Shown here: piece by piece, positions 59,062 to 61,384 of the stretch | Layout: every line of letters starts with the position of its first letter | Position numbering within the stretch: position 1 is the stretch's first letter | NCBI GenBank assembly: GCA_017431825.1 | Contig: JAFRKI010000005.1 | Location: forward strand, 1-64,000 | DNA: 64,000 nt | Direction: 5' to 3' | DNA from: Erysipelotrichaceae bacterium | GTDB lineage: Bacteria > Bacillota_I > Bacilli_A > Erysipelotrichales > Erysipelotrichaceae | Notes under the pieces: model-generated | Databases searched by the model: none | The model's input: only the letters and a program-made list of their open reading frames with translations | Told to the model about the DNA's origin: nothing | Program-made: the position numbers and the translations under genes

Positions 59062-60504
59062 ATGTATCATATTGGGGACTTAAAAAGGTATGTTCGTTGT
59101 CCGCGCTATTACTTCTTTTCCAATGAAAAAAACAGTCCTTCGATCAAGTATCTGCGATCTGATGAATCAACAATAGAACTGCTGGTGAAGCATCTTCATC
59201 TGGAAGATTATTTTCGCGGTGTCGCCGGCGATATGAATGAACGTTTCTTCAGCGAAAAGGACGGTCATGAATGGTTCGTCAAGACCAGATTCGAACTCAA
59301 TGATCTCAGGATCAGGATCCCCGTCATGCATAAGGACAAGGATGCCTATGACTTGTATTTCGCCTATCACGGCGTGAATATTAAGGATCTCGATCTCTAT
59401 TACTACCGCTGCAATCTGGAGATACTGAGAAAGCTCGGTATCACCGTCGACGACGTCTATATCGCCTATATAAACAAGGACTATGTATTCGAGAATGAAC
59501 TGGATTATGATGAGCTCTTCATCATAACCGATCACTATAAAGGCAAAAGACTGATCGATCTCTTTGATGAAGAGATCGTCGATTACAAGGAGACTATCGG
59601 CAGGATCGAGGCTACGAGTCTCGATTCCTACGAAGCCCGCAAGATCAGAGCCTGTCACGGAAGGGAGATCTGTCCCTATTACCATGAATGCTTCCCATAT
59701 GAAGAGGAACTGCCCGATGATTCGATCCTGACCCTGGTATCATCACAGTACAAGGAGAAGATGTATCAGGAAGGCATCGTGCATCTGAAGGATGCGGACA
59801 TCGGAAGGATCGAAGGAAACAGAGTCCAGTACGCTCAGATCATGGCATCCAGAAAGGGCGGTCTCTATGTCGACAGGTACAATCTCAGAAGCTTTCTGAA
59901 AAATCTTGATAAGAAACCGGTCAGCTTCATCGACTTTGAATGGGATACCTACCTGGTGCCTAAGTATGACGGGATGCGGCCCCTGGATGTGCTGACCTTC
60001 GAATATGCCCTTTACATTCTGGACGAAAACGGCGAACTGGAGAATCACAGTTTCATCGGCAGCGGCGACTGCCGCCGGGAATTCGTGGAAGCCCTGATCG
60101 AGCACCTGCCTGAAGAAGGGCCGATCGTCGCCTATAATGCCCTGGGTGCTGAATGCCGCAGGCTCAGTGAACTGGCTGAACAGTTCCCGGAATACCGGAA
60201 GCAGCTGGATCAGATCAATGACCGCTTCGTCGATCTGGCCGTGCCTTTCGTGGAAGGACTGGTCTATGATATCAGGATGAGAGGCAACTTTACTCTTAAG
60301 AAACTCGTCGACATCGTGTCCAGCTACAACTACGGCGACCTGGCCATATCCGACGGCATCAAGGCCGTCAGGAAATGGCGGGACATCGACAAGGGAAATG
60401 ATGAGATAGATGAAGAGGAGGCCATCAGTGAACTGATCGAATACTGCAGTCTTGATGCCTACGGACTCTACCTGGTCTATAAATGGCTCCTGGAGCTGAT
60501 TTAA
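59062..60504 (+). CDS. DUF2779 protein: degenerate RecB/Cas4-like nuclease fused to a DEDD-type exonuclease
   Basis: 480 residues in two parts. The N-terminal part has the Cas4-like cysteine pattern: C13 and C198, C204, C210 (CHGREICPYYHEC), which would bind an Fe-S cluster. The PD-(D/E)XK core seems degraded. Related proteins have RAD...DLYEVKSS, but here the aligned stretch reads RIP (85-87) and DLYFAYHG (97-104), losing the acidic residue and the E-x-K. The C-terminal part looks like a DEDD exonuclease: FIDFEWD (D291, E293), AYNALGAECRRL (E364) and CSLDAYGLY (D465). The function is unknown; nucleic-acid binding or processing is inferred. Confidence 0.75.
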   Translation: MYHIGDLKRYVRCPRYYFFSNEKNSPSIKYLRSDESTIELLVKHLHLEDYFRGVAGDMNERFFSEKDGHEWFVKTRFELNDLRIRIPVMHKDKDAYDLYFAYHGVNIKDLDLYYYRCNLEILRKLGITVDDVYIAYINKDYVFENELDYDELFIITDHYKGKRLIDLFDEEIVDYKETIGRIEATSLDSYEARKIRACHGREICPYYHECFPYEEELPDDSILTLVSSQYKEKMYQEGIVHLKDADIGRIEGNRVQYAQIMASRKGGLYVDRYNLRSFLKNLDKKPVSFIDFEWDTYLVPKYDGMRPLDVLTFEYALYILDENGELENHSFIGSGDCRREFVEALIEHLPEEGPIVAYNALGAECRRLSELAEQFPEYRKQLDQINDRFVDLAVPFVEGLVYDIRMRGNFTLKKLVDIVSSYNYGDLAISDGIKAVRKWRDIDKGNDEIDEEEAISELIEYCSLDAYGLYLVYKWLLELI

Positions 60505-60530: not shown

Positions 60531-61052
60531 ATGAAATTTGCTATCTATGGTGAGAACGTCACGATCACTGACGAAATGAGAGAGAAGATCGAAGACAAGC
60601 TTTCATTTCTGTCAAAGTACTTTGCTGTCGATGAAGCTACGACAGCCCGCTTTACGGTAAAGGTTTACAATGGTTCATTAAAGATAGAGGTTGCGATACC
60701 GACAAAGATTGGTTTATGTCGTGCCGAAGTTGTGCACGACGATTTCGAAACAGGCGTCGACCTGGCCATCGACAAGATAGAAGATCAGATCAGAAGACAG
60801 AAATCCCGTCTTTCCCGCAGACACAAGGATTCTCTGGCTGAGACATTCGTTGAGGAAGAAAGCGGTGATAACGATATCCCGGTCAAGACCAAGACGGTTT
60901 ACGCTGATGAAATGGCTTTGGATGAGGCGATACTGCAGATGGAAATGCTGTCACATTCGTTCTTCATCTATAAAGATATCGATGCAGACAGGATCGCCGT
61001 TGTCTATAAACGTAACGACGGTAATTACGGATTGATAGAAGTCTCCGATTAG
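60531..61052 (+). CDS. hpf: Ribosome hibernation-promoting factor, long form
   Basis: 173 residues. The N-terminal S30AE domain (AIYGENVTITDEMREKIEDKLSFLSKYF) and the C-terminal dimerisation domain (ADEMALDEAILQMEMLSHSFFIYKD) are joined by a linker, the long form that makes 100S ribosome dimers. ATG 60531 follows AAGGAGG. Its stop codon lies inside its terminator. Confidence 0.95.
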   Translation: MKFAIYGENVTITDEMREKIEDKLSFLSKYFAVDEATTARFTVKVYNGSLKIEVAIPTKIGLCRAEVVHDDFETGVDLAIDKIEDQIRRQKSRLSRRHKDSLAETFVEEESGDNDIPVKTKTVYADEMALDEAILQMEMLSHSFFIYKDIDADRIAVVYKRNDGNYGLIEVSD

Positions 61053-61093: not shown

Positions 61094-61384
61094 TTGAAGA
61101 GGCTTATAGATATGATTGCCAAAAGCTACATGTCATCCAAGCTGATCTTAAGGGAAAACGAACTGGGGATAACCAACAGGTCCAACAGCTATCTGGAACC
61201 TTACCGTTTCAATGTCTATCATATTGAGACCGTGGTATCCTGCCTTAATGAAGATGACAGACTGATCATAGCCAACGAAGTGATAGCCGGTAAGAAGGGC
61301 GCCTGGTACCATCAGTACATGTCGGCACCAACTTACTACCGTCACCGTAAGGCTGCCTATACAAATTTCCTAAGAAGTTTGTAG
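61094..61384 (+). CDS. Small helical protein with a sigma/ArpU-like C-terminal segment
   Basis: 96 residues starting at TTG 61094, 7 nt after AGGGGG. The C-terminal half has the look of a helix-turn-helix with a basic recognition helix: VIAGKKGAWYHQYMSAPTY, then YYRHRKAAYTNFLRSL. YYR...A...F resembles sigma region 4 or ArpU-type regulators. The family may be the small MG284/MPN403-like proteins of Mollicutes, from memory and not checked. It lies between hpf and ptsI. DNA or RNA polymerase binding is a guess. Confidence 0.6.
   Translation: MKRLIDMIAKSYMSSKLILRENELGITNRSNSYLEPYRFNVYHIETVVSCLNEDDRLIIANEVIAGKKGAWYHQYMSAPTYYRHRKAAYTNFLRSL

Follow-up and report, generated by a model that had tools for sequence, protein, structure and literature searches.

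A clade of DUF2779 proteins in Erysipelotrichaceae with a lost RecB-like nuclease site and an intact-looking DEDDy exonuclease half

The window analysed here, a stretch of 64,000 nucleotides from Erysipelotrichaceae bacterium (assembly GCA_017431825.1, contig JAFRKI010000005.1, positions 1 to 64,000 of the forward strand), carries a gene for a DUF2779 protein of 480 amino acids, the features of which are listed in Table 1. The open reading frame (ORF) at 59062-60504 is uninterrupted and the gene is real. DUF2779 (PF11074) was the sole Pfam match of the product (E 2.7e-29, residues 289-410), and the score of 102.5 bits against a curated cut-off of 23.3 places the protein within this family. Sequence comparison confirmed that the RecB-like N-terminal half has lost its catalytic PD-(D/E)XK site, and the same loss was found throughout a clade of 108 proteins. 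On balance, the protein is probably a DEDDy 3'-5' exonuclease on one polypeptide chain, whose iron-sulfur (Fe-S)-type RecB/Cas4-like N-terminal domain is catalytically dead and would hold a DNA or RNA strand, as judged from sequences, predicted models and analogy.

A total of 219 loci yielded 200 distinct full-length DUF2779 proteins, fragments shorter than 430 amino acids being left out; before this step, three short sequences (L030, L093, L106) and two loci at which no ORF was found (L178, L179) had been set aside. Membership of the window protein's clade was decided on a one-residue insertion in motif II of the exonuclease, not on loss of the nuclease, and the insertion is present in 108 proteins and absent from 92. 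The preliminary description of this DNA, made from the sequence alone, had read the metal-binding D and E-x-K residues of the nuclease core as P and F-A-Y. This reading was borne out when a profile built from the first 250 residues of ten relatives was aligned with a profile of 15 standard-type relatives (probability 99.4, E 1.6e-21), an alignment in which the invariant D of S-V-D-I faces P87 and E-V-K faces F100-A-Y102, so that the catalytic D and E-x-K of an active PD-(D/E)XK nuclease are missing. In a first comparison of 48 sequences of the window clade with 27 other DUF2779 proteins of Bacilli, column 87 held D in 26/27 of the others and P in 46/48 of the clade, column 100 held E in 26/27 and F in 42/48, respectively, and column 102 held K in 26/27 of the others and mostly an aromatic residue in the clade (Y in 30 and F in 6 of 48). 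The loss extends beyond the residues first pointed out: D at column 114 and Q/E at column 118, each present in 26/27 of the others, are altered in the clade, and the E/Q that is standard in the outgroup at position 74 is likewise lost.

In the complete clade, 0/108 proteins have an acidic residue at position 87 or 100, and 0/108 have a K at 102. Even when two columns on either side were scanned, any of D87, E100 and K102 was detected in just 1/108, and an acid near 87 or 100 in 0/108. Loss of the N-terminal site by chance is thereby excluded. The preliminary description had left for checking whether the loss was a feature of the clade, and the answer is clear, the motif being present in 0/108 clade proteins versus 82/92 others, the latter as counted with a regular expression for D...E-x-K on the raw sequences. 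Two matches of this expression inside the clade (L028 and L029) fall past the core (residues 207 and 165) and were taken as chance. The profile-profile alignment and the scan of neighbouring columns together ruled out that the loss is an artefact of misalignment.

Migrated acids are known in the PD-(D/E)XK superfamily, and the nuclease half could in principle still be catalytic through such residues, for example D57, D111 and D148 with K91 or K108. Acidic residues are indeed frequent at positions 57 (96/108), 111 (96/108) and 148 (93/108), as is K or R at 91 (96/108) and at 108 (89/108). These candidate acids, however, all stay below 95%, the six positions 74, 87, 100, 102, 114 and 118 changed together, and the lack of any acid within two columns of 87 or 100 shows that neither the D nor the E-x-K pair was replaced nearby. 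Acids and a lysine elsewhere in the N-terminal fold, which the preliminary description had named as the finding that would overturn it, were also sought; conserved D6, D57, D111 and D148 were recognized, but no D...E-x-K set. Catalysis by migrated residues is, in our estimate, very improbable.

In the exonuclease-domain tree (199 tips, with L177, an odd mycoplasma-type ORF, omitted), the 108 clade proteins are monophyletic, with a local support of 0.917 and a stem of 0.56; the trimmed alignment behind this tree retained the motif II columns, that is, the region of the clade-defining insertion. Nearly all members of the clade were read from one Erysipelotrichaceae-type family, and the insertion is carried by no protein with an intact nuclease site. 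PF11074 was detected in 178/223 genomes and 46/56 genera of the family of the window, though not all of these copies were read. Two or more copies occur in 16 of the listed PF11074 genomes, and in the 12 two-copy genomes for which both copies were read, one copy was the dead form and the other the standard form. The standard copy was intact in 11/12 of these genomes and lacked E in one, G280, where L090 has L in the position of the catalytic E with D and K kept; G280 also encodes the usual dead form. The host genome of the window (1.68 Mb, 17 contigs) holds a single DUF2779 copy by protein search. The named relatives at 64-67% identity are metagenome-assembled genomes of Erysipelotrichaceae and one entry labelled uncultured Solobacterium.

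The fold of the N-terminal half was examined with predicted models. The AlphaFold2 model of residues 1-250 gave a predicted local distance difference test value (pLDDT) of 76.9 and a predicted template modelling score (pTM) of 0.71, and the model of the full-length protein gave a mean pLDDT of 83.6 and a pTM of 0.62. The order of the PD-(D/E)XK core (helix, three strands, helix, strand) is present in these models, with helix 59-65, strands 71-79, 82-92 and 95-102, helix 109-124 and strand 129-137. The best VIA Z for the N-terminal model was obtained with Cas4 (7mi5 and 7mi4, 11.6), followed by Cas4 4ic1 (10.3), human Exo5 (9.8) and AdnA (9.4); Foldseek by itself gave weaker matches (best E 1.3e-3, probability 0.99). 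Alignments with the Fe-S members run mostly from residue 1 to about 210-216 and cover all four cysteines, and matches to structures of the lambda-exonuclease type end near residue 192. The span from residue 1 to about 210-216 is shared with the Fe-S RecB-like nucleases AddB, AdnA, Dna2 and Exo5, which are active nucleases, but the window protein differs from them in lacking the metal-binding residues. The claim that Cas4-like cysteines of the Fe-S type are kept also held: C13, C198, C204 and C210 are present in 108/108 and follow the Cas4-type layout, with a single cysteine on the N-terminal side of the fold and three on the C-terminal side.

Sequence searches added to this picture. The window protein showed no match to Cas4 (PF01930) at E values up to 1; the standard relative L058 matched this family (E 2.8e-11), L031 stayed under the cut-off and L094 gave no match. 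The match of L058 backs the same Cas4-like origin for the N-terminal half. No NCBIfam family was matched by the 480-residue protein up to E 1, and membership of the TM0106 RecB-like family is thus unsupported; a sequence search of solved structures, with either the protein itself or a 10-sequence profile as the query, returned nothing useful.

The C-terminal half looks like an intact DEDDy 3'-5' exonuclease, its activity being predicted from motifs and the model. Residues 285-480 of the predicted model matched the exonuclease domains of B-family DNA polymerases with VIA Z of 14-16. This range corresponds to KOD-type 135-330, with an offset of 150 at both ends (only the range ends were compared), which puts D291, E293, Y461 and D465 at KOD-type 141, 143, 311 and 315, presumably the catalytic exonuclease residues. 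The residues D291, E293 and D465, described before as looking intact, are kept in 108/108, 108/108 and 107/108, respectively, and the set is completed by N359 and E364 of motif II (E364 in 108/108) and Y461 (107/108), the other row being truncated for Y461 and D465. All elements of a DEDDy site, D-x-E, the motif II acid and Y-x-x-x-D, were therefore found, with E364 and not D as the motif II acid; W294 is also kept in 108/108. The N-to-acid spacing of motif II is five in the clade, unlike that in other DUF2779 proteins, most of which have N-x-x-F-E.

Since N-A-x-G-A-E stands in the place of N-x-x-F-E, the insertion might break the exonuclease site too, and the whole protein would then no longer be an enzyme. 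The insertion sets the clade apart (108 proteins with it, 92 without) and arose along the long stem (branch 0.56) on which the nuclease was lost too, and in three proteins from a different clade both halves look dead. We consider this reading improbable in view of the conservation of D291, E293, E364, Y461 and D465, and of the spacing of five, which is the same as that in motif II of B-family polymerases, Y-N-x-x-x-F-D. The ratio of nonsynonymous to synonymous substitution rates (dN/dS) of the exonuclease, 0.02-0.10 where defined, also speaks against it.

Purifying selection is ongoing on both halves. In 13 clade pairs, taken at an exonuclease identity of at least 0.89 and with a defined N-domain dS (0.11-1.98), dN/dS was 0.03-0.15 for the N domain and 0.02-0.09 for the exonuclease; for more distant pairs, near saturation, the value rose up to 0.24 in the N domain. 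Decay to a pseudogene was rejected, because the frames are open, dN/dS is low and PF11074 is widespread in the family, as counted above. Divergence is faster in the N half than in the exonuclease half, and the gap is wider than in the short standard group. Up to residue 215, only 8 positions reach 95% invariance across the clade, and the cysteines account for four of these; the N half is retained under relaxed constraint except for the cysteines, G53, R76, R83 and Y141.

The N half may bind nucleic acid or otherwise support the exonuclease, a role favoured by the likeness to the Fe-S RecB-like fold, by the near-invariant R76 and R83 and by the purifying selection, together with the analogy to RecC described below. 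In the mechanism proposed, the four cysteines would still bind an Fe-S cluster, which would staple the N-terminal fold, and the former active-site groove, with R76 and R83 and without the catalytic acids, may hold or thread a single strand, much as the dead domain of RecC forms a hoop. Such threading could bring the 3' end to the exonuclease site; we infer both the role and the substrate. By strand alternation, R76 should face the same way as position 74, and R83 the same way as position 87.

It is also conceivable, with a smaller but appreciable likelihood, that the N half is a mere scaffold for folding or stability inherited from a bifunctional ancestor, the Fe-S site keeping the fold without any contact with the substrate. 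The low number of invariant positions agrees with such a scaffold, and so does the rate of divergence, the mean N identity being 0.294 in the clade (3892 pairs) versus 0.381 in the short standard group (25 pairs) at an exonuclease identity of 0.4-0.5. On the other side, R76 and R83, which sit on strands that once formed the active site, are each kept in 107/108, and the N domain is deleted in none of the 200 proteins, a set from which fragments below 430 amino acids were left out. The strand-holding exonuclease proposed here has several observations to contend with. The faster divergence of the N half fits a passive remnant equally well and weighs against a strongly specialised role. Outgroup proteins also carry R at the R83 column (6/27) and at the R76 column (4/27), so that the arginines are not unique to the dead form. 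Lastly, L176, L218 and L219 of another clade have lost exonuclease residues as well (E293 to S, E364 to I or L, D465 to K), indicating that the exonuclease is not always the function retained.

Outside the window clade, ten proteins lack D...E-x-K: L077, L090, L177 and a seven-member clade (L176, L191, L209, L215, L216, L218 and L219; support 0.961). L077, the lone exception among the 27 outgroup rows, represents a separate loss, and the nuclease site appears to have been lost independently at least two more times, in the seven-member clade and in L077. The four cysteines are kept in all nine of these motif-less proteins other than L177, and among the ten, exonuclease residues are missing in L176, L218 and L219 only. 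In the mycoplasma-type rows, position 204 is non-Cys in 15/15 and the nuclease motif is kept in all fifteen. Loss of the nuclease site without loss of the cysteine set, and the converse, thus occurred in different lineages.

Some details of these lineages were observed in addition. The third cysteine of the mycoplasma-type proteins (L033-L037, L039-L043, L045, L048-L050 and L060) is changed to N, G, F or L, and their last cysteine often lies within C-H-H or C-F-H. L176, L218 and L219 (from G155, G162 and G174) are about 552 amino acids long, and both halves look dead with the four cysteines present; G162 and G174 additionally hold an intact short copy (L075 and L058).

RecC contains a RecB-family nuclease domain that has lost its catalytic features and provides a hoop for single-stranded DNA (PMC1185551). 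The likeness lies in a dead RecB-type domain within a nucleic-acid enzyme; the difference is that RecC is a subunit of a helicase complex, and the window protein joins its dead domain to a DEDDy exonuclease and has four cysteines of the Fe-S type. The nucleocapsid protein TP1 of TTV1 is a derivative of Cas4 and a precedent for a dead Cas4-like domain, with its catalytic residues lost, being reused otherwise (PMC4625639), but the DUF2779 clade protein has a complete cysteine set and an attached exonuclease. DUF2779 itself was classified as RNase H-like family F.17, co-occurring with DUF83 and presumed to have 3'-5' exonuclease activity (PMC3985635). The standard DUF2779 proteins share domain order, cysteines and exonuclease motifs with the window protein; they differ in that 82/92 keep D...E-x-K, a motif missing throughout the clade, in which the motif II insertion and W294 are present. 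A transposon mutant of Mycoplasma bovis in a DUF2779 gene was among those growing poorly with host cells (PMC7373297). In the parts examined of the literature on DUF2779 and COG2251, no description of an inactive form was found, and a search on pseudonucleases and iron-sulfur returned, at title level, unrelated work only; neither the Pfam name nor the literature portions examined assign a biochemical function to DUF2779.

The DUF2779 gene lies between alr, which ends 50 nt upstream, and hpf, which starts 26 nt downstream (both identified by Pfam). Among 106 clade loci with usable flank, hpf was located within 300 nt downstream in 61, farther away in 8 and absent from the flank in 37, a count limited by flanks often of just 1.3-2.9 kb; it was so located in 0/90 other loci. 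This linkage offers a weak clue to the function of the DUF2779 clade. Between hpf and ptsI, an ORF of 96 amino acids (61094-61384) without a Pfam family is kept in this position in many relatives (bit scores 22-136); ptsI and the sugar genes in the window were assigned by ORF reading. Neither cas1 nor cas2 is adjacent to the DUF2779 gene, the neighbours tested with Pfam being alr and hpf. An origin from defence systems or phages was rejected, as no PADLOC family and no PHROG family below E 0.19 was matched, and with this one protein as the query, no DUF2779 relative was confirmed on viral contigs. On another contig of the host genome, two large nearby ORFs of 837 and 1089 amino acids match PDDEXK_1 and were read as AddAB-like, in which case the host genome is not short of a RecB-type nuclease.

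Table 1. Positions in the window of the DUF2779 gene, its parts and its downstream neighbour
Feature	Position	Strand	Basis
DUF2779 protein gene, 480 aa, ATG start; Cas4-like pseudo-nuclease half and predicted DEDDy exonuclease half	59062..60504	+	ORF and Pfam
N-terminal half, residues 1-215, predicted Fe-S RecB/Cas4/Exo5-like fold without catalytic residues	59062..59706	+	AlphaFold2 model 1-250, VIA Z
Cys13, first putative cluster cysteine	59098..59100	+	108/108 in clade
Arg76, strand 1 (71-79) of former active site, clade-typical	59287..59289	+	107/108
Arg83, strand 2 (82-92) of former active site	59308..59310	+	107/108
Pro87 replacing metal-binding Asp	59320..59322	+	alignment comparison
Phe100-Ala101-Tyr102 replacing Glu-x-Lys	59359..59367	+	alignment comparison
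Cys198, Cys204, Cys210 (C-x5-C-x5-C), remaining three putative cluster cysteines	59653..59691	+	108/108 in clade
C-terminal half, residues 285-480, predicted DEDDy 3'-5' exonuclease fold	59914..60501	+	VIA Z 14-16
Exo motif I, Asp291-Phe-Glu293	59932..59940	+	108/108
Exo motif II, Asn359...Glu364, clade-specific one-residue insertion, N-A-x-G-A-E	60136..60153	+	alignment
Asp391, D-L motif	60232..60234	+	107/108
Exo motif III, Tyr461-x-x-x-Asp465, DEDDy signature	60442..60456	+	107/108, remaining row truncated
hpf, ribosome hibernation promoting factor (S30AE and C-terminal domain), downstream neighbour	60531..61052	+	Pfam

A wider reading, which we offer only tentatively and with less confidence than that for the window protein, is that an Fe-S RecB/Cas4-like strand clamp arose repeatedly from a former cutter within one exonuclease family (in the large Erysipelotrichaceae-type clade, the seven-member clade and L077), the cluster cysteines being retained in every case and the mycoplasma-type proteins showing the reverse. 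If this is true, the Fe-S staple and the nuclease site are separable, and the exonuclease would need the staple and not a second nuclease. From the predicted pairing of a RecB-like nuclease with a DEDD exonuclease, one might guess that cutting is done by both halves. A large clade in which one half is dead and the other is intact, and which stands beside a second copy in 12 of the genomes read, separates the two activities and shows which half the cell keeps, and the clade may serve as a simple system for the roles of Fe-S RecB-like domains other than cleavage.
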